The notes below the pieces were generated by a model, which was given only the letters and a program-made list of their open reading frames with translations, was not told where the DNA came from and ran no database searches. DNA of 64,000 nucleotides from Bryobacterales bacterium (GTDB taxonomy: Bacteria > Acidobacteriota > Terriglobia > Bryobacterales > UBA6623), in assembly GCA_028819235.1 (NCBI GenBank), contig JAPPMC010000095.1, positions 1 through 64,000 on the forward strand, written 5' to 3'. Of this stretch, positions 1,410-28,236 are shown piece by piece (positions within the stretch are counted from its first letter, which is position 1; the number at the start of each line of letters is the position of its first letter). A program made the translations under genes and the position numbers.

Positions 1410-3137
1410 ATGCCCGGCGAAAACGGAAAGCTGCGCTCAGAGGACTGGTTTGGACGGAACGACAAACTCGGGTTCCTGCACCGCTCGTGGATGCGGGCGG
1501 AGGGGTTTCCGGGGAGTGTCTTCTCCGGCAAGCCGGTCATCGGCATCTGCAATTCCTGGTCCGAGCTGACCAACTGCAACGCCCACCTGCGCCAAGTCGC
1601 CGAAGCCGTCAAGCGCGGTGTGTGGTCGGCGGGCGGTTTCCCGCTCGAGTTTCCGACCATCTCGCTCGGCGAACCCTTCATGCGTCCGTCCTCGATGATG
1701 TTCCGCAATCTGATGGCAATGGACGTAGAGGAGTCGATCCGGGCCAATCCCTTGGATGGGGTCGTGCTGCTGTGCGGTTGCGACAAGACTACGCCTGCCC
1801 AGCTGATGGGTGCTGCCAGTGCCGACCTCCCGTCGATATTCGTCACCGGTGGGCCGATGCTGAAGGGCAGGTGGAAGGATCGCCAACTCGGTTCGGGCAC
1901 GGATCTTTGGCACTACTGGGATGAGCTGCGCGCCGGTCGCATCACCCACGAGGAGATGTGCGAGATCGAATGTGGCATGTCCCGCTCGGCCGGGCACTGC
2001 ATGGTGATGGGCACCGCCTCGACCATGACCAGCATTGCCGAGGCCCTAGGCATGACGCTGACTGGCTGCGCGAACATTCCGGCTGCCGATTCGCGCCGTT
2101 ACGAGATCGCCCACCGCAGCGGCGAGCGCATCGTCGAGATGGTGCGCGAAGATCTGCGGCCCTCAAAGATCCTCACGCGCGAGGCGATAGAGAATGCCGT
2201 ACGCGTCGACATGGCCATCGGCGGATCGACCAACGCCATCATCCATCTAAAGGCGCTGGCCGGCCGGCTGGGCGTAGACCTACCTTTGGAGCGCTTCGAC
2301 GAGATCTCCCGGGAGACGGCTGTGGTCGCCAACATCCAGCCTTCGGGAGAGCATCTCATGGAGGACATGTTCTACGCCGGGGGGATCCCGGTCGTGATGA
2401 ACGACCTTCTTGACCAACTCAACGGCGAATGCATCACTGTCACGGGCAGAACCATTTCCGAGAACGTGCGCGGCTCCGAGTGCCATGACCGCGATGTTCT
2501 CCGTTCGCGCCACCGGGCGCTGCAGCCGGAGGGAGGCACAGTGATCCTGCGGGGAAACCTCTGCCCGCGCGGGGCTGTGCTGAAGACCAGCGCCGCGTCA
2601 AGGGATCTTCTGCAGCACACGGGCCGGGCCGTTGTCTTCGAAGACCACGAGGATCTGATGCGGCGTATCGACTTGGCGGACCTCGAAGTGGACGGGGAGT
2701 CCGTGTTGGTGCTCAAGAACGGCGGTCCGGTCGGGGCTCCGGGCATGCCGGAGTACGGCAACCTGCCAATCCCTGCCAAGCTGCTCAAGCGAGGGGTCCG
2801 CGATATGCTGCGCATCTCGGACGCCCGGATGAGCGGAACTGGATATGGCACAGTCGTGCTGCACGTCAGCCCCGAATCGGCGGTCGGAGGCCCGCTGGCG
2901 CTGGCTCGAACGGGTGACTTAGTGAGGCTCGACACCGCCGGGCGCCGACTCGACCTGCTGGTCGACGACGGTGAACTCCGGCGCAGGAAGCAGGCTTGGG
3001 ACCCGCGACCGGCCCACTATGACCGAGGTTTCGGAAAACTCTTCTTGGAATCGGTGATGCAGGCCGACGAGGGTTGCGATTTCAGGTTCCTGCGTTCGAC
3101 GGGCACGGCGGAGCCCTTCCTGCCGCTGGCCTTCTAA
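1410..3137 (+). CDS. IlvD/Edd-family sugar-acid dehydratase (L-arabinonate dehydratase type)
   Basis: A 575-residue IlvD/Edd dehydratase, predicted to remove water from an aldonic acid to give a 2-keto-3-deoxy acid in cytosolic sugar oxidation. The three cysteines expected to hold the iron-sulfur cluster are C56, C124 and C197. The likely carbamylated metal-binding lysine is K126 in CGCDKTTP, and the candidate catalytic serine is S475 in ARMSGT. From memory, the spacing of the cysteines matches the pentonate/L-arabinonate dehydratase branch (C59, C127, C200 in the Rhizobium enzyme) better than amino-acid-pathway IlvD, and no branched-chain amino-acid genes are nearby. Arabinonate, xylonate and similar acids cannot be told apart here. 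Start: ATG 1410, with no Shine-Dalgarno but a close -10 box. Confidence 0.88.
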   Translation: MPGENGKLRSEDWFGRNDKLGFLHRSWMRAEGFPGSVFSGKPVIGICNSWSELTNCNAHLRQVAEAVKRGVWSAGGFPLEFPTISLGEPFMRPSSMMFRNLMAMDVEESIRANPLDGVVLLCGCDKTTPAQLMGAASADLPSIFVTGGPMLKGRWKDRQLGSGTDLWHYWDELRAGRITHEEMCEIECGMSRSAGHCMVMGTASTMTSIAEALGMTLTGCANIPAADSRRYEIAHRSGERIVEMVREDLRPSKILTREAIENAVRVDMAIGGSTNAIIHLKALAGRLGVDLPLERFDEISRETAVVANIQPSGEHLMEDMFYAGGIPVVMNDLLDQLNGECITVTGRTISENVRGSECHDRDVLRSRHRALQPEGGTVILRGNLCPRGAVLKTSAASRDLLQHTGRAVVFEDHEDLMRRIDLADLEVDGESVLVLKNGGPVGAPGMPEYGNLPIPAKLLKRGVRDMLRISDARMSGTGYGTVVLHVSPESAVGGPLALARTGDLVRLDTAGRRLDLLVDDGELRRRKQAWDPRPAHYDRGFGKLFLESVMQADEGCDFRFLRSTGTAEPFLPLAF

Positions 3138-3202
3138 CGATTGGCCGCCATCGTCGCCCGCTGGCAAAAGCGCTGCTAACATTGGGCCCGGTCCGTCGGC
3201 TC

Positions 3203-4603
3203 ATGGCACAAGGGGAGAAGGAGGCGAACGAGTCCGGCCTCAGTCGCGGGGCCGGCATGGAGGCTTGGCTCGGCCCTTGGCGCGCCTATGTGGCGAGCCG
3301 CTGCGCGGATGGTTCGGACGCTGTGGAGGTGGCGGAGGAACGGCTGCGGGGCACGACGGGGGAGCTACAGAGCCGCGGCCTTGAGCCCGACGAGGCCTTC
3401 TTGGTCGCGGTCCGCCGGGTAGCAGTGGACCATGCCCCCACGGCGGAGTACGCGCGGCAGAACCTGGCTAGATTCTGGGAACGACAACCCGACGCCGAGA
3501 GCGATGCAGACTCTGCCAACCGAAGTCGCCTCCCTGAGATCGTCGTTGTGTTGGCGCTGGCCGTGGGTGCCGCCGTCTCAGTCAAGCTCGCGGGCTTAGC
3601 CGAGGCAGCCTCTGGAGAGAGGGCCGATGCCTTCTTCGTGCGGAACGCCGCCTTCTTCACCCTGCCGTGGCTGGCCGCGTACTTCTTGTGGAAGCGCTTT
3701 CCCGGAAGGAGGCTAGCCATCCTCACGGGGATCGGCTTCTCAGTCGCCATAGTGCTGGTAAACGCTTATCCGTTCGACATGGAAGGGATGACCGTCGTGC
3801 TGTCCGGCCTGCACATGCCGATCGCCCTCTGGCTGCTTGTCGGCATTGCCTACACCGGCGGCGAGTGGTCGCGAATGGGCCGTCGCATGGACTTCGTGCG
3901 TTTCTCGGGAGACCTCGTGATCTGCTTTGTGCTGATCGCATTGGGCGGTGGGGCTCTCACTGCCCTCTCCGTCGCTCTGTTCAGTTCGATCGGCCTCGAT
4001 CTTGAGTCGTTCGCGGAGAACTGGATCCTTCCATGCGGAGCGTGCGGTGCCGTCACGGTCAGCGCATGGCTGGCAGAAGTGCGCCGCGGCATGATCGGCG
4101 GAATGGCGTCGCTTCTGGCTCGGGTCTTCACGCCGCTCCTTTCGATCGTCCTAGTGGTGTTCCTTTCGACGATGGTGTGGACTCGGCAGGGCATCGAAGT
4201 CGAGCGTCATGTGCTGGTTGCTTTCGACGTGATCCTGATTCTGGTTGTCTGCCTGCTCTTGTACTCGCTGTCGTCCCGGGAGCGGTCCGATCGACCGAAC
4301 TGGTCTCACCGGCTGCAGCTTGTGCTCGTGGTCTGCGCCGTACTGGTGGACCTAGTCGCTTTGGCCGCCGTGCTGCAAAGAATCTCCGAATACGGGGCCA
4401 GTGCGAACAAGCTGGCGGCCTTGGCCGAGAACCTCATCTTGCTCGTCAACCTTGCATGGACAGCTTGGCTCTACGTCCGAGTCCTGCGCGGCAAGGCCGC
4501 TGTCTTCGCTATAGAGCGTTGGCAGACGGCCTACTTGCCGGTCTACGCTGCGTGGGCCGCGGTCGTGGTCGTACTCTTCCCGCCGCTGTTCCGCTTCGCA
4601 TGA
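3203..4603 (+). CDS. Polytopic membrane protein of unknown function
   Basis: About 466 residues. The first ~100 are soluble and acidic, reminiscent of the permease-prefix type of N-terminus (an alpha-helical region ending near PTAEYARQNLARFWERQP). The rest is about ten hydrophobic helices separated by short loops, resembling DUF4153-like membrane proteins. No transporter signature or catalytic motif was seen. The frame is open back to 3074, but an upstream start would overlap the dehydratase that ends at 3137, so the ATG at 3203 is preferred. It is co-directional with the dehydratase, 65 bp downstream, and convergent with the next gene (13 bp apart). Function is unknown. Confidence 0.7.
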   Translation: MAQGEKEANESGLSRGAGMEAWLGPWRAYVASRCADGSDAVEVAEERLRGTTGELQSRGLEPDEAFLVAVRRVAVDHAPTAEYARQNLARFWERQPDAESDADSANRSRLPEIVVVLALAVGAAVSVKLAGLAEAASGERADAFFVRNAAFFTLPWLAAYFLWKRFPGRRLAILTGIGFSVAIVLVNAYPFDMEGMTVVLSGLHMPIALWLLVGIAYTGGEWSRMGRRMDFVRFSGDLVICFVLIALGGGALTALSVALFSSIGLDLESFAENWILPCGACGAVTVSAWLAEVRRGMIGGMASLLARVFTPLLSIVLVVFLSTMVWTRQGIEVERHVLVAFDVILILVVCLLLYSLSSRERSDRPNWSHRLQLVLVVCAVLVDLVALAAVLQRISEYGASANKLAALAENLILLVNLAWTAWLYVRVLRGKAAVFAIERWQTAYLPVYAAWAAVVVVLFPPLFRFA

Positions 4604-5639: not shown

Positions 5640-6190
5640 CAGCTCCGACACTTCACGAAGGCATGCCCTGACACGGCGCTCGGTTCGCTAGGGGATGGTG
5701 TCGTACGGAAAGACGGCCCGATGGATCTCCCGAACCTCGACCATGGTTCTGATGCCGAGTTCCAGCGCAAGCGACTCGACGTCTTCCAAGGCGCGCTCGC
5801 GAGGCGCGGACCTACATGGCGAGCACTTGGCCAGCGGATGCACCGGTGACACCGAGATGAGGCGAGTCGAAGAGTACCTCGACCCGAACACCCGGTGCGG
5901 TTAACACAGGAATCCAGCTGACGTGATCGTTCAGCCAGTCGTCTGGCAGTTCTTGCTCCGCCGCCACCTTACTTGCGGCATCCAACACCAAGCGCCGGTA
6001 GTGAGTCTATAGCGCGTCCGCGTCCATCGTCTTCCGACTGCTTCGGTGCGCCAACACGAGCGCCGCGCTGCCGAAGATGTACACGTGTGCCCGATCACCT
6101 CGCTCTTCGAGATGCCTATCAGGGAGTTCGAAGGCCCGTGCGATGGAGCGGCGGTTGAGCGGCCGACCGGCCTCAGGGGGTCCAGGCAGC
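5640..6190 (-). pseudogene. Decayed DUF6036-type nucleotidyltransferase
   Basis: Reading the minus strand from about 6190, the sequence begins LNRRSIARAFELPDRHLEE and continues through YIFGSAALVLAHRSSRKTMDADAL. This matches the N-terminus of DUF6036 nucleotidyltransferases (helix, G-[GS]-A-A, then T-x-D-x-D/A). An in-frame stop follows immediately, and the same frame then continues as THYRRLVLDAASKVAEQELP to GQVLAM. A frameshift leads to the expected C-terminal element ALEDVESLALELGIRT, and a further stop interrupts the last ~20 residues. At least three lesions make this a pseudogene. The family is AbiEii-like and often acts as the toxin half of a two-gene module; the partner remnant lies directly upstream. 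Confidence 0.62.
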
Positions 6191-18571: not shown

Positions 18572-20069
18572 CTGGATCGCGGCCGGCCTGCTTGTGCTGG
18601 GCGGCCCGCCTCCGGGCGCACCGCAAGTGCCCGGTACTGCGTACCGTGTCGAGACTCTGCGGGGCCCGCGGGATGCCAAGGCCGAAATCTCTGCGGTCGA
18701 GTTTGGGCATGACGGGAGACTGTACGCCACTTTTCGCCGGGGCTACGTCTACTCGTTCGACACGCGGACACGCCGTTGGCGGCGATTCGCGGAAGGGCTG
18801 AACACGCCGCTCGGTATCGCGCGGGGGCGGAAGCCCGGCAGTTTTCTGGTTGCGCAGGTGCCGGAGCTGACAAGGGTCGAGGACACTGACGGCGATGGCC
18901 AAGCAGACCTGTACGAGACCGTCTCCGATGCGTGGGGCCTGTCGGGAAATTACCACGAGTTCATCGCCGGACCGGTCCGTGACGCGGAGGGGAATCTCTA
19001 CGTGTCGCTCGGGCTGGCATCGGGCAATGCCGACCCTCGACCGCCGGTGCGGGGCGAGATGACCCGCCGGCCGCGAGTGGCGGCTACTCCGGTCGAGGGG
19101 CTGGTCAACAAGATCGGCCACTACTCCCCAGTGCCGTACAGGGGCTGCGCCCTGCAGATCCGCCCGGATGGCACGGCGCGGCCGTTCGCCTGCGGGTTCC
19201 GGCAGCCCAACGGGATCATTGCCACGCCCGACGGCGAGATCCTAGTGGCTGACAACCAGGGCGACTGGGTCGGCACCTCGCCGCTGCACCACGTCACGGA
19301 TGGAGCGTTTCACGGGCATCCGGCATCGCTCCACTGGCACCCGGAATTCCTCGGCACCAATCCGGTCGAGGCGGCCGTTGACGAACTGGACCGGCGTCGG
19401 AAGCGGCCCGCGATTCTCTTCCCTCAGGGCGACATGGGCGGATCAACCGCCGGCATGGCGTTCGACCTTAGCGGTGGGGCATTCGGGCCCTACCATGGCC
19501 AGCTGTTCGTTGCCGAATGGACGTACCCGCGCGTGCTGAGGGTGGACCTGCAATGGGTTGGCGACACCCTCCAAGGGGCGGCCTTTCCGTTCGTGGAGGG
19601 TAACGGCCTGCGGATGGCCAACAATCGGCTGGCGTTTTCTCCAGACGGCCGCAGCCTCTACGTCGCACAGACCTCACGCATATGGGGCTCCACGGAGGGG
19701 CTTCAGAGAGTCGTGTGGCAGGGCCGCACGGCGTTCGATATTCTCGCGATGAGACTCGTGCGGGAGGGCTTTGAGCTGCGATTCACCAAAGCCGTCGATC
19801 TGGACACGGCCAGCGATCCCGGAAACTACTCCATGACACGGTACCGCTACCTGTACCACGCCGCGTACGGATCGCCGAAGGTCGGCGTCACTCCCGTCGC
19901 AGTGACCCGCGCCCGCGTGTCCGACGACAAGATGGCTGTGGAGCTGTCTGTGCCGGACCTCGTGGAGGGCTGGCTCTACGATCTGCGCCCGGTGTCGGTG
20001 CGAAGCTCTGGTGGCGAGAGACTCGTCACGACGATGGTCGCCTACACCCTCAATCGCAGGGTCGAGTAG
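18558..20069 (+). CDS. Secreted beta-propeller protein (glucose/sorbosone dehydrogenase-like)
   Basis: 503 residues starting at a TTG inside the end of the cytochrome gene, with a signal peptide (PSWIAAGLLVLGGPPPGAP). The body is a six-bladed propeller of the soluble glucose/sorbosone dehydrogenase or membrane-bound-dehydrogenase type. Repeated blade signatures are GLNTPLGIARG, EDTDGDGQADLYETV, GFRQPNGIIATPDGEI, DNQGDW and GQLFVAEWTYPRVLRVDLQ. The DTDGDGQAD loop is a calcium-binding type and is common in this group. It may accept electrons from a substrate and pass them to the pentahaem cytochrome with which it is translationally coupled; that role is inference. Whether it binds PQQ cannot be told. 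Confidence 0.8.
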   Translation: MRAPSWIAAGLLVLGGPPPGAPQVPGTAYRVETLRGPRDAKAEISAVEFGHDGRLYATFRRGYVYSFDTRTRRWRRFAEGLNTPLGIARGRKPGSFLVAQVPELTRVEDTDGDGQADLYETVSDAWGLSGNYHEFIAGPVRDAEGNLYVSLGLASGNADPRPPVRGEMTRRPRVAATPVEGLVNKIGHYSPVPYRGCALQIRPDGTARPFACGFRQPNGIIATPDGEILVADNQGDWVGTSPLHHVTDGAFHGHPASLHWHPEFLGTNPVEAAVDELDRRRKRPAILFPQGDMGGSTAGMAFDLSGGAFGPYHGQLFVAEWTYPRVLRVDLQWVGDTLQGAAFPFVEGNGLRMANNRLAFSPDGRSLYVAQTSRIWGSTEGLQRVVWQGRTAFDILAMRLVREGFELRFTKAVDLDTASDPGNYSMTRYRYLYHAAYGSPKVGVTPVAVTRARVSDDKMAVELSVPDLVEGWLYDLRPVSVRSSGGERLVTTMVAYTLNRRVE

Positions 20070-20087
20070 CCGCTTGGGCGGCCCACC

Positions 20088-20516
20088 TCAGGCCTTGAGC
20101 CACTTGAAGTAATAGAAGACCAGGTCTTGCGATCCGGTGTTCTTGATGCCGTGGAGCTCGTTCGCGTTGGTGTACATCATTGCGCCGGCCTGCACGTGGG
20201 TGGTCTTGCCCTCGACGTAGATCTCGCCGATCCCTTCCGCGAGGAGAAGGATCTCCTCTTCCGGATGCTTGTGGGGCGGGTGCGGCTCCATTCCCGGGCG
20301 GAGGCGCAAGCTGCCGCCCTCGAATACCCGTAGGTCGTTTGTAGCGCCTTGGTAGTAGATGTGCTGGACTCCGAAGGCGTGCGATAGCTCTTGGGCCTTC
20401 TCCGGCGTCCGGACGTCGGCCTTGATTCCAGCGCGCGCGGCGCTCGAGCCGCCGGCTAGGATTGCCGAGCCCATCGTGGCGGTCGCCATTGAGAGAAACA
20501 GTCGGCGATCTTCCAT
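20088..20516 (-). CDS. Exported cupin-domain protein
   Basis: 142 residues. The start at 20516 gives a signal sequence (MEDRRLFLSMATATMGSAIL, cleavage near SAARA). The remainder is a single cupin barrel. The first motif is HPPHKHPEEEILLLAEGIGE with His, His and Glu ligands, followed by AGAMMYTNANELHGIKNTG with the final His. This suggests a metal-binding cupin located outside the cytoplasm. Enzymatic or binding function is unknown; small exported cupins of this kind are frequent in Acidobacteria. It is convergent with the propeller gene (18 bp apart) and is not obviously in an operon. Confidence 0.78.
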   Translation of the reverse strand: MEDRRLFLSMATATMGSAILAGGSSAARAGIKADVRTPEKAQELSHAFGVQHIYYQGATNDLRVFEGGSLRLRPGMEPHPPHKHPEEEILLLAEGIGEIYVEGKTTHVQAGAMMYTNANELHGIKNTGSQDLVFYYFKWLKA

Positions 20517-20747
20517 AGAAACCCTCCCTTCGCCGACCTCAAGGGCCAGCGGGAGCCCCAATGTACAGCGCGGCCCGGCCCACAGTCAACCAAGGGTCGA
20601 GCCCGCTAGCGCAAGGCCCATTGCCTTCACGCTGGTCTCCCGCGATGCTACGACAGATGACGAGTTCCGCACGGCGCTCGACCTACCCCGTGAGACCGCG
20701 CGGCGCATCCGTGGCAGTCTTGGCAGGGGAGTGGTTTTGCAGTGGCC

Positions 20748-21881
<1,134 letters not shown>

Positions 21882-22084
21882 GGCTCAATTGTGGACCATC
21901 AAACGCCGAGGCTGCGCCGTTCCTGCCAGTGTCCAAGAACCTGGCAATTCAGCGACGCCGGCTGATCTCGGTCCGGATCTCCAAGACGCATAGGAATCTG
22001 AAGGCCCGCTGAGCGGCTCTCGCGAGTCCTGCAAGGCATAGGTAGCCCCGAATTCAGAATTGCCTCGGGTGGCTGCGGACACAT

Positions 22085-22383
22085 CGCATCACGATAAGGT
22101 CGAAACATTCGGCATGGCGCTCTGCGGCGGTCCTTCCGCGCGGCGATGCCAGCAGGCCGGACGCAGGGAATGCCCTGCGCATCAAGGGCATCCTCGAGGC
22201 GCTTCGCGAGGATGACCTGCTGGGCGGTGACCTAAGGGTGCCAACCCTCCGGCTGCGTCTGGTGAAGGGGACCGTAAGGGCCAATCGTCAGTGCGTGTGG
22301 TCCGAGCTTGGCCGATCGTATTCCGTGTTGAGAGTGCCAACGTCCTTGACGCTGACCTGACGAACTACCACTTGGAGGGACCC
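22085..22383 (+). pseudogene. Frameshifted HigB-like toxin
   Basis: One frame from about 22085 reads RGDASRPDAGNALRIKGILE and LRVPTLRLRLVKGT, matching the middle of HigB/RelE toxins (basic helix, then L-x-L-P-x-x-R-L-H-x-L-K-G). After about 22275 the family sequence continues in another frame as VRVVRAWPIVFRVES and DADLTNYH, the expected beta-strand and C-terminal D-Y-H. The join needs a one-base deletion or two-base insertion. No start codon is obvious, and the usual stop after D-Y-H is missing, so the 3' end reads in frame into the HigA gene. The toxin cannot be made as a normal protein. Confidence 0.62.
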
Positions 22384-22722
22384 ATGAGCGAGAGCAACGA
22401 GAGCCTGCCCTACGATTCGTGGCTGCGGCGCGATCCGTCGCATTCCGGCAGGTTCGTGAGCGACTGGATGGAAGACGTGGACGGCAAGCTCATGCCGGCG
22501 GCCGAGGCGGCTCGCAAGCTCGGAGTGTCCATCCCAGAGCTGGATCGCGTGCTTAACGGTCGGGGGCGCATCTCGGTGGCGCTGGCGCCGAAACTGGAGG
22601 CAGAAGGCTGGGGCAAGGCGGATGCGTGGATACGGAAGCAAGTCGCTTATGACTTGGCGCGACAGCTAAACCGCATTGGCCAGTGGCCCGACGAGACCGC
22701 GGTCAAGGCCGAGGCGGCATGA
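22384..22722 (+). CDS. higA: HigA-like antitoxin (HTH)
   Basis: 112 residues from ATG 22384. The HTH of HigA/VapI antitoxins is visible: AAEAARKLGVSIPELDRVLNG is followed by RGRISVALAPKLEAEGWGKA and IRKQVAYDLARQ, the equivalent of the usual alpha-helical W-x-x-x-Q-x-x-Y-D-L. The Shine-Dalgarno lies in GGAGGG just upstream. It is the second gene of a HigBA arrangement, toxin first. Its frame is intact while the toxin is broken, so it may persist as a free-standing repressor or be on the way to decay. Confidence 0.75.
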   Translation: MSESNESLPYDSWLRRDPSHSGRFVSDWMEDVDGKLMPAAEAARKLGVSIPELDRVLNGRGRISVALAPKLEAEGWGKADAWIRKQVAYDLARQLNRIGQWPDETAVKAEAA

Positions 22723-22889
22723 TGTTTCCGATGGCAGCCCATTGCTTCACGGCAGGGGCTGGTTCCTTCTGGATTCGCCCCCATCTGCGCGGCCACCCGG
22801 ACGGGCGCGATGAACTGCAACCTAGCGTTGCCGGCCCGTCGCCGCTAGTAGTTGATTCCGGCACCGGAACTGCGTGTAGTCTCACAGCT

Positions 22890-23325
22890 CCCGACTTGGG
22901 CTAACGTGCCCGGTCCCAGCTTCTTGGCCGACAAGCCAGCTTCGGTGATGGCGGGATCGACTGGCGGGTTTCCAAGTGGGATTCTCCGTCTCCCGATGCA
23001 AGGTCTCGGTGCAGAATCGCAGTAGATGGCCGAGGTGCTGTCGGCGCGCCGGCTATATCGGGCCGGGGAACTGCCCAACAGAGCGGTGGCCGAACAGGCC
23101 AGGTTAGGCCGCGGGTCTCGGAAGGCGTCCTGCTGAGTCTTGGTGGGCGCAGGTCAAGGACCACATGCGGATCTCTGCCGATGAGCCAGCCCATGCGGAC
23201 CGGCGACGGGCAGGGTGACCTGTGACAACCTTCAGGACATCCTGGTAACGGAACACGGTCCCCATGCACTTCAGGACTTGACGATTGACGCCAAGGCCTT
23301 CGGGATCAGAGACATCAGGAACTGT
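22890..23325 (+). repeat. Direct repeat, copy A (left of the Rpn gene)
   Basis: This ~440 bp stretch aligns along its length with 25125-25575 in the same orientation. The best conserved block is 23131-23224 against 25368-25463, about 90% identical by eye and starting TGCTGAGTCTTGGTGGGCGC; the flanks are nearer 65-75%. In the plus strand both copies can be read as SWWAQVKD followed by RISAD-P, and both contain similar stops and frame breaks, so the repeat may derive from a decayed coding sequence. No terminal inverted repeats were found and the family was not recognised. Confidence 0.65.
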
Positions 23326-23582
23326 CGATCCCGCAGGATCCACTCTCGCTCGGAGGTGTGCGCTACGACTGGTCTGGGCAGATTCTCGATACTGCCAGAG
23401 TCAGCCCCTCGCTGCTGATTCAGTGACGGGTGCATGCCGCGAGGCACATCCGACCTTGCGTCGGGACTCTACCCAGTCGATCATCCTTGGCTAAGACCGG
23501 AGCAGCCGAGGATCCTGCCGTTGGTGGGCTCACGTCGCAAATGCCCAACGTCGCCAACTCCAAAGCCAACTACGGCTAGCAG

Positions 23583-24605
23583 TCAGGACTGTCGCACGCG
23601 CGCAAGCAAGGCGTCGCCGCTGTCGCAGATCAGCAGCCACTCCCCGATCTCCTCCAAGAGATCCGTGTCCGTGATTCCCTCCAAAAGGTTGGCGAGGCGG
23701 CCGACCGCGGCACTGCCGAAGCGGATCCTCGCCAATCTCAGCAACAGTCTGCGCTCCCTCTCCAGACCCGCCTCGTATTCTTCCTCGCGGCCTTCCTCAC
23801 GGCCTTCCTCGCGGCCTTGGAGTCGGCCTTCCTGACGACCCTCGTCTCGCATCCTGTCGGCCCATGTCGTCGGCTCCGTCTGCAGCATGTCCAGCACCTC
23901 CATGAGATTGTCGCTCACCGGCGCGTCGGTGATCCCCAAATCGTGGAGCGCAACCTGCGTTATCCAGGACGCGAACGCACTCGCCAGATCCGCACGCCCC
24001 GGCTCACTCGCCCACCCGCCCAGCGGTTCCGCTGCCTCGCAGAGGGCCTCCGGAGTGGCACACCGCTGCAGCCTCGCCAGCAGCACTGCCATGTTCCCCT
24101 CCCCGCCGGGGTCCGGCCAGTTTCGGAAGTCCAGCGTCGGGCACTCCATCCGCGGCGCATCCGCTCCCAGACCACCCTCCTCGGCTTCGATCATCTCCGA
24201 GACCTCGGCAGCGGCCTCCCATTGCCTGCGCCCGCTGTACAGGGTCAGGTGGCGGACGCGCGGCACGCGAGTCGCCGTGTAGCCGTACTCGACAGGCGGG
24301 TCACGGCTCAGGTCGAAGCACATCGTCGCCACAGCCTGGAGCATACGGAATGGCATTGTCGGGTCCGGCTCGGCTTGGCACTCCACCAGCAGCCAGACCA
24401 GGCTGCCGTCTCGCAGGACCAGTCGCCAGGCAACATCGGTGAGGCGTTGGGAGAGGTCTGGGCCGACGATGTTGGCGCTGGCCGGATGCAGCTCCGCAAT
24501 CTGCCCCTCGTCGAGACCGGGCAGGGGGTGGGCGCGGAGCAAGTGCCGGATGAAGTCAGCGTTGTGGACGAAGCGCTTGAATGCCGCGTCGCGCGGCAGT
24601 CGCAT
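23583..24605 (-). CDS. Rpn-family PD-(D/E)XK nuclease/putative transposase-like protein
   Basis: 340 residues. The N-terminal two thirds matches the Rpn/YhgA family: DAAFKRFVHNADFIRHLLRAH, then LTDVAWRLVLRDGSLVWLLVECQAEPDPTM (D, then E-x-Q as the PD-(D/E)XK acidic and Gln residues) and MPFRMLQAV. Rpn proteins promote RecA-independent recombination and cut DNA in E. coli. A Glu/Arg-rich linker (GREEGREEGREEE) leads to a DUF4351-like C-terminus (LARIRFGSAAVGRLANLLEG... LLICDSGDALL). Start at 24605 is chosen because family similarity begins there; the frame runs on upstream without similarity. It lies between the two direct repeats. Confidence 0.82.
   Translation of the reverse strand: MRLPRDAAFKRFVHNADFIRHLLRAHPLPGLDEGQIAELHPASANIVGPDLSQRLTDVAWRLVLRDGSLVWLLVECQAEPDPTMPFRMLQAVATMCFDLSRDPPVEYGYTATRVPRVRHLTLYSGRRQWEAAAEVSEMIEAEEGGLGADAPRMECPTLDFRNWPDPGGEGNMAVLLARLQRCATPEALCEAAEPLGGWASEPGRADLASAFASWITQVALHDLGITDAPVSDNLMEVLDMLQTEPTTWADRMRDEGRQEGRLQGREEGREEGREEEYEAGLERERRLLLRLARIRFGSAAVGRLANLLEGITDTDLLEEIGEWLLICDSGDALLARVRQS
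23775..23840. repeat. Short tandem repeats encoding the Rpn linker
   Basis: On the plus strand, near-identical 12-base units of the form CTTCCTCGCGGC recur about four to five times, with variants (CTTCCTCACGGC, TTGGAGTCGGCC). Read on the minus strand they encode the imperfect GREE repeats of the linker between the nuclease and C-terminal domains of the Rpn protein. The in-frame 12-base unit means copy-number change would lengthen or shorten the linker without disrupting the protein. Similar repeat linkers are known in this family. Confidence 0.6.
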
Positions 24606-25912
24606 GCCGAAATCGAAGGTTTCAAATGGAGCTTGGCAGGGATCGCGACATCGGACTCGCTCGCCTGCCGGCACGCGATTGTAGCGAATGTGCCTACGGA
24701 ACGCCGCTGACCAGCACTCCGACCGAAGCGCTGAAACCATGAGCCCCTCTGGAGGCCCTGAGCCTTCCTAGGGTGTGTGGCAGATTCGCCGGTGAATCTC
24801 CCCTCGGGCAGAACAGGCCGCTCCTGCAGGGCAGGCCTGGGCGTTGGATTCTGTGCGGCTCGCAGCAAGAGGGCATCACCAGCACCATGAACGGGGAGCC
24901 GTTCACGATGACTGCGTCCTCCTCAATGCTGAGTTCGGGGGGCAATGAGCAGCGCACAGACGGCGTCGGCACACCCGAGCCCATCGGCGAGATTGCCGGC
25001 CTAAGCGGTGACAGCCTGAAGTTCTACAGCAATGCGGTCGCGATTCCCAAGGGGAACCACGCTGAGAAGCGCCGGGCGCGAGCGTTTCGACCGATCGGGC
25101 CTGCCGCGGGGCTCGACCACAGTTTTTCACTAGGGCTAACGTGCGCTGTTCCTGTTTCTTGGACGCCAGGCCAGCTTCGGTGGTGGAAAGACCAACCTGT
25201 GGGAGCGACCAAGTGCAATCCTCCGTTTCCCATTGCAGGACCTAAGTGCAGGCTCGCAGTGGATCGCCGAGGTGCCGACGGCGCACCGACGAGAGTTGGC
25301 CGCACCTCTGCCGGAGAGCGCGTTGGTGGGACAGGCCAAAGCAGCGGGCGGGTATCGCTGGAGGTACTGCTGAATCTTGGTGGGCGCAGGTCAAGGACCA
25401 AGTGCGGATCTCTGCCGATGACCCAGCCCGTGCGGACTGGCGACACGGGCAGGGTCACCTGTGGCGACCTCAGGTCTCAGGACATCCTGATAGTTGAACT
25501 CCAGCCGCCATGCACACCGTGACGCGACGATTGACGCCACGGCCTTCGAAATCATCGAGATCAGGAGCCGTTCCGACCGGATACACGCGGGAGAGGGAAT
25601 GGGCGGAGACTCCGCCAAGCCTCCGGTACGAGAGGCTGACCGTACTCGCACCGGAGAGTTGGACCCGCAACAAGTACCAGCCGGCCAATGCGGAGAAGCA
25701 GGAGGCGCTTCGCACGGATTCTAGCTTCGACGAGGCCGTCGATGCTGCGCTCACTACATGAGGGCATTCGCTGAATCGACAAAACTAAGGACTAGCGGCC
25801 AAGCTAGTAGCGGTCTCGGGAGTCTCGAATCTCAGCCCCACTTACTTGGGCCGTCACACGCTGTTTCCGAGACGCGCCGCTTGCCCCATCCCCAGTGGCC
25901 TCGCGGCAGCCG
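24606..25912. other. Gene-poor stretch around the right-hand repeat
   Basis: No supported gene. Upstream of the right-hand repeat, plus-strand text such as IGEIAGLSGDSLKFYSNAV has balanced composition but no start with a ribosome binding site and no recognised family. After the repeat, a plus frame ends in a protein-like peptide (LAPESWTRNKYQPANAEKQ, then SSFDEAVDAALTT and a stop at about 25761) that may be the tail of the same decayed gene as the repeat. A long frame over 24773-25522 is judged spurious. Confidence 0.4.
25125..25575 (+). repeat. Direct repeat, copy B (right of the Rpn gene)
   Basis: Second copy of the element at 22890-23325, in the same orientation. It starts at GGGCTAACGTGC (25134) as copy A does at 22899, and ends at GATTGACGCC...ATCAGGA in both. 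Copy B has the longer uninterrupted reading of the shared peptide (SWWAQVKDQVRISADDPARA). The spacing of the two copies is about 2.24 kb and the Rpn gene occupies most of the interval. Confidence 0.65.
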
Positions 25913-26725
25913 TCAGCCGGGCTGGCGCTCGTGGTAGTCCGTGCGTTCCCCTCTCGGCCGGTTCTTGAACTCCCGCACGAGGCGCACGAACGCGCTGACG
26001 ACCGCTTCGAAAATCGCCTCGCCTTTCGCGGGTGTCCCAAGTGTCGGGTCTCCGTAGGTCCCAGTCTTGCTGAATCGCGTCCACTCGTCCATCAGGTGCA
26101 CCGGCGACCCGTCCATCAGGTCCATCCAAATGAACTCGGATTCGGGCATTCCGATCTCCTTCACAGCCCGGTCCATCTCCACTTTGTCCGGGGCGAGGTG
26201 CAGGTAGACCGATGTTTCCAACTCACCTGCATGAGACATGCCTCCGCGGCCCGACTCGCGCTGTCGGCGGATCTCCTCACGGGCGAGGCTAGGCCAGATG
26301 AACGTACCGCACAGGGCATCGGTCTCGAGGATCGTCCGGCGTGCAACGAGGTCAAGGATCGGCATGTTCGAGCCGTGCCCATCGGCGATCAGAATGCGCC
26401 GGAAGCCGTGGTGGGCCACGCTCTTGGTCACGTCTAGCACGAAGTGCAGGAGGTGCTCTTGGCGGATGTCGATCGTCCCCGTGAAGTCCATGTGGTGGGT
26501 CTCGAACCCGTACGGGATCAGCGGCAACAGGAGGATTTCGCCGGCGGCACGTTTAGCGGCCTCTTCGCAAATGCTCCAGATCAGGAAGTTGTCGGTGTCG
26601 AGCGGCAGGTGGTGGCCATGGTCCTCGACGGAGCCGATCGGCAACACGACGACCGGCTGTTCGCGGACGCGGGCGCCCAGATCCTGCCAAGTATGGTGCT
26701 GGTAGAGGTACGGGATCTTTGCCAT
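25913..26725 (-). CDS. Creatininase-family amidohydrolase
   Basis: 270 residues of the creatinine amidohydrolase family, metal-dependent hydrolases of cyclic amides. The signature begins VVLPIGSVEDHGHHLPLDTD, giving the Glu, His and Asp metal ligands. It continues with IADGHGSNMPILD and GGMSHAGELETSVYLHLAP (the second metal Glu in HAGELET). Family members include creatininase and enzymes in riboflavin/F420 or mycofactocin biosynthesis. Placing directly after an MFS transporter gene (6 bp apart, same strand) favours a catabolic role on an imported compound. Creatinine itself is not proven. Confidence 0.88.
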   Translation of the reverse strand: MAKIPYLYQHHTWQDLGARVREQPVVVLPIGSVEDHGHHLPLDTDNFLIWSICEEAAKRAAGEILLLPLIPYGFETHHMDFTGTIDIRQEHLLHFVLDVTKSVAHHGFRRILIADGHGSNMPILDLVARRTILETDALCGTFIWPSLAREEIRRQRESGRGGMSHAGELETSVYLHLAPDKVEMDRAVKEIGMPESEFIWMDLMDGSPVHLMDEWTRFSKTGTYGDPTLGTPAKGEAIFEAVVSAFVRLVREFKNRPRGERTDYHERQPG

Positions 26726-26730
26726 CGCTG

Positions 26731-27987
26731 CTATGCCTCCGCCCTGACGCGCCGCGCCGGATCGATGGCAAACCAGAGCAGGGCGCCTACACCATACACG
26801 ACGGTCGCGGTCCAGAACATCGCATCGAACGAGCCGAACCTAGCGGCCAGCCACGCCGCCGAGATCGGCGAAATCACTGCTGACGCGCTCGAGGCAGTGT
26901 TCATGAAGCCGGTCGCCGTGCCGCCGTAGCGGTGGCCCACGTCGACGCACACGGCCCATGCGACAGGCAGGGTCAGATCCTGCGCGCCTTGGGCGAATGC
27001 CATCCACAGCACGGCAGCGAGCGGCTCCCCGGCCTCAGCCGCAAGAGCGAAGCCAAGTGCCGCAAGAGCGAAGCCGGCGATGCCCACGGCCCTGCGACCC
27101 CACCGCAGGCCAATCTTCGCCACCAGCCAGTCCGACAGCGTGCCGCCGAACACGCACGCCGCCGCCCCGGCCAGCAGGGGAATCGCCGAGTACAGGCCGG
27201 AGCGCTCCAGCGTCAGGCCGTATTCGTCCATCAAGTAGGTCGGCAGCCACGTGACGAAAAAGTAGAAGCCATAGGCTGAGCAGAAGTACATCCAGAAGAG
27301 CGTCCACAGGTTGCCGTCCTTCAGCATGCTCCTCCACGGAATCGCCGCTGCTTCCGCCGGCGGCGTGCCCTCCGACCGGATGTACGCCAGTTCGTCCGGC
27401 CCCACCGCAGGGTGGTCCGCCGGGTCGTCGGCATACCAGCGCCAGAACAGCCAGCACCAAGCCAAGCCCACTACGCCCAGCGCGGCGAACGACGGGCGCC
27501 ATCCCATGAGGGTGATGAGGACTGCCATGACCGGCGGGGCCGCCGAACCACCAATGCGCGCTCCCATCCACATCAGTCCCGTCGTCGCTCCTCTCTTGCT
27601 GGCCGGAAACCAACGTGCCAGAGCCCGCGTGAGCGTAGGGAAGGCTCCCGCTTGGGCAGCGCCGAAGAGAAAGCGTATGGAGATGAGGCCGACAAGCCCC
27701 CTTACAGCACCGGTCAGGACCGTGAGCAGGGACCACCCGACGACGATCGGGAGCATCAGGCGCCGTTGCCCGAAGCGGTCTCCTAGCCACCCCGTCGGAA
27801 TCTCGAACAGTCCGTACGCGAGCGCGAAAGCGCTGAACACGTATCCCATTTGCGCATTGCTCAGGCCCAGGTCGTCGGTCACGAAGGGAGCGGCAACAGA
27901 AATGCAGACACGGTGTAGGTAGGTGATGAATGCGACGGTGATGGCGAGTGAGAGCGTGGTGCGGCGGGCGTGGGTGGAGGTGTTCAC
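26731..27987 (-). CDS. MFS transporter (anion:cation symporter-like)
   Basis: 418 residues with about twelve membrane segments. MFS landmarks are visible: GWLGDRFGQRR in the loop between helices 2 and 3, and the matching motif GGTLSDWLVAKIGLRWGRR in the second half. The N-terminus (TTLSLAITVAFITYLHRVCISVA) and DLGLSNAQMGYVFSAFALAYGL-type segment resemble the ACS family that imports hexuronates, glucarate and other organic anions. It precedes the creatininase-family gene by 6 bp and is presumably co-transcribed, suggesting uptake of that enzyme's substrate. Start is a GTG at 27987, in a 250 bp intergenic region shared with the divergent ABC-transporter operon. Confidence 0.85.
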   Translation of the reverse strand: MNTSTHARRTTLSLAITVAFITYLHRVCISVAAPFVTDDLGLSNAQMGYVFSAFALAYGLFEIPTGWLGDRFGQRRLMLPIVVGWSLLTVLTGAVRGLVGLISIRFLFGAAQAGAFPTLTRALARWFPASKRGATTGLMWMGARIGGSAAPPVMAVLITLMGWRPSFAALGVVGLAWCWLFWRWYADDPADHPAVGPDELAYIRSEGTPPAEAAAIPWRSMLKDGNLWTLFWMYFCSAYGFYFFVTWLPTYLMDEYGLTLERSGLYSAIPLLAGAAACVFGGTLSDWLVAKIGLRWGRRAVGIAGFALAALGFALAAEAGEPLAAVLWMAFAQGAQDLTLPVAWAVCVDVGHRYGGTATGFMNTASSASAVISPISAAWLAARFGSFDAMFWTATVVYGVGALLWFAIDPARRVRAEA

Positions 27988-28236
27988 GGAAGCGGCTGGA
28001 TTCTACCAGCGGCTGCAGTCGCCTCGCGCTCAACGGGGTCGATAGCCCACTCGGCAGCGGGCTCTGGATCGTGCGCAGCGCATGGGCGTTCGCCGGCCCA
28101 TTCCGGAATGAACACGCCCCATGCCACTGACAGGTGCGTGATATCATCGGGTCACGCTAGGGTCGCCGCTATGGCGGCCCCAAGACCGACGGTCGGAGGT
28201 GCGGCATCAGTTCCCCCGGGCCGGGTGAGTCCGCAC

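Follow-up and report, generated by a model that had tools for sequence, protein, structure and literature searches.

Probable MITE-like elements on both sides of an Rpn-like nuclease gene in a Bryobacterales genome

The 64,000-nucleotide stretch analysed here (the window; positions 1 to 64,000 of contig JAPPMC010000095.1 from a Bryobacterales bacterium) carries an Rpn-like nuclease gene between two diverged direct repeats, R1 and R2. Very probably these repeats are decayed copies of a family of elements, here called E, that resemble miniature inverted-repeat transposable elements (MITEs) and would be moved in trans, the gene between direct copies being cargo or a neighbour and Rpn not the engine. 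Judged from sequence, E is a probable family of non-autonomous, MITE-like transposons, and because it has terminal inverted repeats and 5-bp target duplications, the evidence points to transposition as its means of spread. E is a concrete candidate vehicle for the spread of rpn genes and brackets Rpn, Uma2, and VapBC-type genes. The genome holding the window is called G000 and a sister species G002; the window lies on G000 contig C217, and C numbers denote contigs of G000 unless G002 is named.

The repeat pair and the element family

The features that define the pair are as follows.

22883..23326, plus strand: R1, a complete but decayed element E with left end (LE) at 22883-23003 (E-value 7e-24) and right end (RE) at 23069-23325 (E-value 1e-52)
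22883..22897, plus strand: terminal inverted repeat at the left of R1, differing from CACAGTTCCTKACAT at 3 positions (motif match)
23312..23326, minus strand: terminal inverted repeat at the right of R1, differing at 3 positions (motif match)
23583..24740, minus strand: Rpn-like (YhgA-like, PF04754) PD-(D/E)XK nuclease gene (Pfam 5.9e-12, 46 bits, cut-off 21)
25113..25117, no strand: left copy of the probable 5-bp target duplication of R2 (4/5 bases match the right copy)
25118..25572, plus strand: R2, a second decayed element E oriented as R1, with LE at 25118-25245 (E-value 4e-30) and RE at 25310-25571 (E-value 9e-56)
25573..25577, no strand: right copy of the probable 5-bp target duplication of R2 (4/5 bases match the left copy)

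A first-pass annotation had placed the same element of ~440 bp on both sides of the Rpn gene in one orientation, and repeat search, alignment, and blastn all bear this out, with ends at 22883 and 25572 that are close to the limits it gave. The two copies lie 2235 bp apart in one orientation with the Rpn-like gene in between, and all four ends (LE and RE of each) are present. In a global alignment of the trimmed copies they share 75% identity over 444 columns with 11 gap characters, which extends the homology far beyond the 95-bp core named in that annotation and supports its view that the repeats are diverged, hence old. The repeat search gave an ungapped direct match of 236 nt (22972-23207 and 25209-25444, 76%), which collinear blocks at a spacing of 2235-2246 continue from 22883/25118 through 23325/25571, and R1 as a blastn query retrieved R2 at an E-value of 9.6e-75. 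With up to three mismatches, CACAGTTCCTKACAT matches four times in the 64-kb window, two of the matches coinciding exactly with the ends of R1; the inverted repeats of R2 are absent from these four.

Aligned copies of E have CACAGTTCCTKACAT at the left and its reverse complement at the right, giving 15-bp terminal inverted repeats. The layout comprises a left end of ~135 bp and a right end of ~275 bp, compact copies with both ends are ~290-670 bp long, and the GC content is 61-65% in the five copies checked. Allowing at most one mismatch, CACAGTTCCTKACAT occurs 14 times in G000, 10 times in G002, once in G004, and not at all in eight other genomes of the same genus, against 0-1 matches per genome for a reversed control pattern. 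The motif is a sequence tag by which the vehicle idea can be tested.

Among 61 genomes, blastn with R1 gave eight matches in G000 (R1 included) and one in G002; matches of 28 bp and 44 bp in G051 and G048 were taken as chance, and profile searches gave only weak matches there. Among 18 genomes of the family, a sequence-only model of six copies had 22 matches in G000 and a single strong one in G002; four more of these genomes had only matches with E-values of 5e-4 or weaker. The full-length profile showed many copies split into LE and RE with other DNA between them. A left-end model matched 48 times in G000, 11 times in G002, and never in nine other genomes of the same genus, and its matches in G000 merge with those of the R-model into about 44 E sites. 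In public genome contigs a 28-base left-end pattern was found on four contigs of one Bryobacterales metagenome-assembled genome (G002), records of close relatives possibly having been left out, and it was not found in viral contigs. When G002 was searched with 614 bp of a young element, most of what was found lay at contig ends; the rest was a copy bearing Uma2 (C170), 125 bp at C443, and some short matches. E combines terminal inverted repeats, a fixed-length target-site duplication, and many dispersed copies, three of the attributes by which MITEs are recognised. Three copies (L196, L198, and L199; C259, C106, and C280) have common bases past the assigned right end and so are related by more than E, and at L119 (C212) two related genes (432-2012 and 2773-4173; 66% nucleotide identity) flank a solo right end beside a Fic-domain gene, the second of the pair having no Pfam match.

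Target duplications of 5 bp are well supported by the flanking bases. With hand-set ends, 17 elements matched at 37/85 positions for length five, compared with a shuffled mean of 21.9 (p=0.0005), and lengths 2-4 and 6-10 gave p>0.14; with profile-set ends, 21 elements matched at 43/105 compared with 27.3 (p=0.0014), and the lengths other than five and six gave p>0.15. These p-values are approximate, as related copies are included; many old copies show no match, and nine lengths were tried in each test. The profile-set collection adds C229 (5/5) and C259 (0/5) and treats two inner left ends as alternatives. Length five had first come to notice with the right end of R2 set 3 bp, and that of C305 10 bp, shorter than in the hand-set test. 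Matches of hand-set flanks, out of five, were 5 for C178; 4 for R2, C774 (of G002), C206, and C22; 3 for C282; 2 for R1, C155, C131, and C106; 1 for C104, C100, C305, C65, and C280; and 0 for C113 and C68. The outer flanks of whole units, described below, matched at 5/5 for C178 and C229 and at 4/5 for C206 and C22.

Cargo units and the origin of the window pair

Copies or ends of E within about 4.2 kb of each other were counted as close pairs, and there are twelve: C104, C206, C131, C220, C22, C100, C178, the window pair and a second pair at 105-106 kb on C217, C229, C221, and C378 of G002. Several are copies of one unit and so do not represent twelve independent events. All 12 are direct, and in 11 of them a recognised gene (for Uma2, Rpn, a VapBC-type, DUF433, or coiled-coil protein) lies inside; the pair at 105-106 kb on C217 has no clear gene within it. 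The pairs on C220 and on C378 of G002 show no right end, and that on C221 has only right ends. At larger distances, C117 has a direct pair 5.8 kb apart, and the nearest neighbours seen in opposite orientation lie 5.3 kb apart on C178.

Cargo units with E ends move between sites, as read from their sequences, because Uma2 and coiled-coil units are each found over their full length at more than one site. On C206 and C104 a left end is followed by an antisense Uma2 gene (PF05685), a partial second left end, and a right end; the two units are 91.8% identical along 2.9 kb that reach the inverted repeats, and their surroundings differ. C100, C22, and C178 have in common, at their different sites, a unit with a small coiled-coil gene, laid out as in the Uma2 units. 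Further Uma2 genes lie in or beside E on C131, C220, C282, C35, C1, C280, C171, and C170 of G002; C229 has PIN and Phd/YefM genes (VapBC-type) between two partial copies, and on C221 two right ends enclose a DUF433 gene. The second left end has lost its initial 20-70 positions on C206, C104, C131, C100, C217 (105-106 kb), C229, and C117, and keeps its start on C22, C178, C378, C220, and in the window. Two element copies enclosing other DNA are thus a recurrent arrangement, with inner ends missing in many units. Within the C229 pair, a second direct repeat of ~80 bp (84%; L020:4919-4999 and 5837-5916) flanks the VapBC-type genes.

Rpn genes lie near E more often than the DNA covered would predict. 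PF04754 gave 25 matches in G000, merged to 24 places by joining two pieces on C106. Six of these places are no more than 1.5 kb from E, where 0.51 would be expected (naive p=9e-6, a significance inflated by related copies), and the same six fall within 2.5 kb against 0.76 expected; density near E was measured for Rpn only. The other 18 places are not near E. Four more E sites have C-terminal Rpn-like pieces before left ends, on C155 and C296 by blastn and on C68 and C137 by eye, the C137 piece matching no Rpn family by Pfam and only P5CR_dimer under its cut-off. On C378 of G002, two left ends flank an Rpn gene of E. coli type, and other Rpn genes stand just ahead of left ends on C117. Matches to the C-terminal part only, as if to stand-alone RpnS-like proteins, were also seen at C296:4613-5107, C6:2430-2831, C305:1012-1320, and C312:432-872, and several Rpn matches occur in a row on C204 of G002.

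The evidence on the window pair points both ways, with about even odds that R1 and R2 inserted separately; in neither case need Rpn have played a part. This alternative, in which the two copies landed independently in an insertion-prone spot with HigA-like and Rpn genes and the Rpn gene never moved as a unit, has a probability slightly under one half. It draws on R2's own probable 5-bp duplication, on the presence of both inner ends of R1 and R2, on a paralogous locus on C14 that has a right-end piece of E and an Rpn gene and lacks E2, and on the greater likeness of R2 to the C229 copy (79%) than to R1 (75%). Coincidence sits poorly with the uniform orientation of the close pairs, 11 of which enclose a recognised gene, and with the excess of Rpn places within 1.5 kb of E, though those copies are related. 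The proposal in the first-pass annotation of a composite unit is partly supported: elsewhere, direct pairs of this family hold cargo that has moved, and for the window pair two separate insertions may be present.

Comparison with G002 bears on a second alternative, that cargo was gained or lost mainly through homologous recombination between the repeats after a single insertion. On C229, two overlapping partial copies of E surround the VapBC-type genes, and the counterpart in G002, C774, has one complete E and none of these genes, with flanks 86-88% identical. The outer flanks mark the same insertion point (5/5 in G000, 4/5 in G002) and therefore one insertion with two internal states, so a relative with a single repeat and no cargo, of the kind that the earlier annotation suggested looking for, exists for this pair, and G002 may have come to its single repeat by recombination between two. 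Against this, the two C229 copies are 76% alike, no more than either is to that of G002 in the overlap, which does not speak for a recent event. At the window, the pectate lyase and creatininase genes are 199 bp apart in G002 compared with 4049 bp in G000, so that G002 lacks both repeats and the whole block of ~4 kb rather than one repeat with its cargo; the C14 locus likewise measures 237 bp in G002 and 3472 bp in G000. Recombination also leaves unexplained the spread to about 44 sites, the inverted repeats, and the copies of units at different sites, and as the main process it is unlikely. G002 is listed as 87% complete and several of its E copies run into contig ends, and the nine other genomes of the genus do not bear on the window locus, the pectate lyase match being missing or apart from the creatininase match, either on another contig or at a great distance along the same one. 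At one further site (L158/L166; C443 of G002 and C158), an E left end stands at the same place in both genomes and G002 has an additional ~3.16 kb with a phage-integrase-family gene.

The first-pass annotation put forward a third explanation, in which the Rpn nuclease itself promoted a segmental duplication. In E. coli, RecA-independent transfer is aided by Rpn proteins (PMC5350276), and Rpn genes do occur in tandem repeats in this genome (L025, L026, and L028; C296, C6, and C217:90000-105000), in stretches of 1.8-2.8 kb that are 86-99% identical. The transposon ends and target duplications speak otherwise, as does the same layout carrying Uma2, VapBC-type, DUF433, and coiled-coil genes. The search for further copies that the annotation had advised found them in plenty, at about 44 sites, only six of which have a full or partial Rpn nuclease-domain gene within 1.5 kb, leaving 38/44 not beside that domain. 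Duplication by Rpn is very improbable on these grounds.

The mechanism proposed for E starts from a transposase that would recognise the inverted repeats and move the element in trans. Where two copies lie in direct orientation, their outermost ends could be used together, the gene between them becoming cargo, and units would mature by loss of inner ends into the order LE1 - cargo - LE2 - RE2, in which the first right end is gone and the second left end is often shortened. The E1-Rpn-E2 arrangement of the window, with Rpn as cargo or neighbour, would be either an unmatured form of this layout or the outcome of two independent insertions next to an Rpn gene, and it is worn and probably immobile now. 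Such a layout suggests a way in which toxin-like genes can hitch rides.

Several observations weigh against this account. In the duplication tests, length six reached p=0.015 with profile-set ends, five elements added to the hand-set test (C65, C106, C280, C68, and C282) matched at 7/25, about chance, and the outer unit flanks of C131, C104, and C100 matched at only 2/5, 1/5, and 1/5. At the window, the R1 flanks match at 2/5 bases and R2 has its own probable duplication, which does not favour a single unit, and no second full copy of E1-Rpn-E2 was found in the genomes searched. The 38 E sites away from Rpn nuclease domains belong here as well, as does the failure to recognise a transposase with E ends in the loci inspected, several G002 copies ending at contig ends. 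Finally, a codon-like stretch puts some doubt on the term 'non-coding': in 117 bp of the right half of E (alignment columns 119-235), one frame is open in 6/6 copies, third positions differ most in 15/15 pairs (significantly in 6/15), and variable columns number 10/15/27 by phase (p=0.012). This stretch may be a remnant of the parent's gene. Over the whole element, codon-phase tests gave p>0.05 in 11/11 pairs; no family match to E itself appeared in the open reading frames (ORFs) tried by Pfam, including an ORF of 154 aa that spans the E copy of G002 as one open frame (L045:1773-2237).

Transposase genes do occur near E on C131 (62 bp from a left end), C178, C29 (DDE_3), and C662 of G002 (IS110-like); that on C178 is presumably IS1634-like. 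A 775-aa ORF on C178 (L155:8027-10354), a fusion of a DruA domain (PF14236, 6.6e-34) and a Tn5-like transposase, was considered as an autonomous partner and set aside as part of an insertion sequence nested in the coiled-coil unit with an 8-bp junction overlap. RNA structure in E is not claimed: RNAalifold on six copies gave a covariation term of +3.85 and two-sided change in 4/64 pairs, and Rfam gave no match at gathering thresholds in 20000-28000.

Relation to known mobile systems

The nearest relatives of E in kind are MITE-bounded composites, from which it differs in ends, host, and cargo. An integron gene cassette had been considered because toxin genes alternate with repeats, and this reading was dropped on finding inverted repeats and target duplications. 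Tn3-derived inverted-repeat miniature elements (TIMEs), and composites bounded by two of them (TIME-COMPs), are described in PMC4133298 and PMC13367494. Like E, TIMEs are there presented as having no transposase gene, terminal inverted repeats, and target duplications of 5 bp (5 or 6 in TIMEs), and in a TIME-COMP the element pair mobilises the DNA between, which resembles the E pairs. The description in PMC4133298 sets the two apart, however, as TIMEs have 38-bp inverted repeats of Tn3 type, which E lacks, its repeats being about 15-17 bp and of other sequence. TIME-COMPs are also reported in both orientations, whereas the 12 close pairs of E are all direct, and the cargo of E differs in consisting of nuclease- and toxin-like genes.

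In Acinetobacter, a pair of 439-bp MITEs surrounds class 1 integrons, as outlined in PMC3934969. These resemble E in size, in having two copies in one direction, and in the 5-bp direct repeats around the composite. The Acinetobacter copies are described as identical, 72% AT, and associated with resistance integrons, whereas those of E are much diverged and, in the five checked, 61-65% GC. With E, the range of MITE-bounded composites would come to include toxin- and nuclease-like cargo in a genome of the Acidobacteriota.

Recurrence of this cargo is of interest because the literature describes Uma2 as a likely solo toxin and Rpn as a toxin-antitoxin, anti-phage protein that does not itself move. 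Rpn proteins (RpnL/RpnS) are characterised as toxin-antitoxin and anti-phage proteins in PMC10327210, which reports no sign of autonomous rpn transposition and suggests hitchhiking; compared with that study, a candidate vehicle here adjoins some Rpn genes. Uma2 is called a likely solo toxin and predicted PD-(D/E)XK endonuclease in PMC2701414. Among the literature matches listed there was no account of rpn or Uma2 genes inside miniature transposons, which is weak evidence of absence. A bolder idea, improbable in the present assessment, is that E could be a dedicated vehicle for solo toxins and nucleases: units of the order LE1 - toxin/nuclease - LE2 - RE2 would persist because cargo such as Rpn, Uma2, and VapBC punishes loss, and PD-(D/E)XK proteins may even have a part in cutting or joining the ends, in the manner of TnsA in Tn7. 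If this were true, Rpn and Uma2 would be working parts of a transposition system and not passengers.

The Rpn-like gene and its neighbours

Other features of the locus are listed below.

21854..25902, no strand: stretch missing from the sister species (4049 bp in G000, 199 bp in G002)
22110..22383, plus strand: possible frame-broken HigB-like remnant upstream of the HigA-like ORF (read by eye; confirmed by no tool)
22384..22722, plus strand: HigA-like antitoxin ORF adjoining R1 (TIGR02607 4.7e-10, 39.2 bits, under cut-off 47.7; HTH_3 under cut-off)
23776..23849, minus strand: 12-bp repeat array within the Rpn-like gene, coding a 4-amino-acid repeat (repeat search; paralogue comparison)
24773..25116, plus strand: remnant with weak similarity to part of an outer-membrane beta-barrel protein (PF25183, 1.2e-4, under cut-off)

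The window protein belongs to PF04754, scoring above the Pfam curated cut-off (46 versus 21 bits), and falls under that of the stricter NCBIfam model TIGR01784 (30.7 versus 52.1). Its gene probably starts at 24605, because DNA homology with four paralogous loci ends there. The paralogue on C14 is 89% identical and 8 residues shorter in the repeat array, equivalent to two 4-amino-acid units, a difference from the nearest paralogue that resembles the variation in RpnS repeat number described in PMC10327210.

The end of C14 homology exactly at R2 was set aside as a telling boundary, since a related stretch of G002 (C408) stops 14 bp earlier and the point may be the segment's own end. At C14, a HicB-like ORF recognised by eye adjoins the Rpn paralogue (L019:6092-6517), with only a weak DUF7387 match under the cut-off. 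C14 and G002 also have stretches related to the beta-barrel remnant, some of them next to Rpn and some not.

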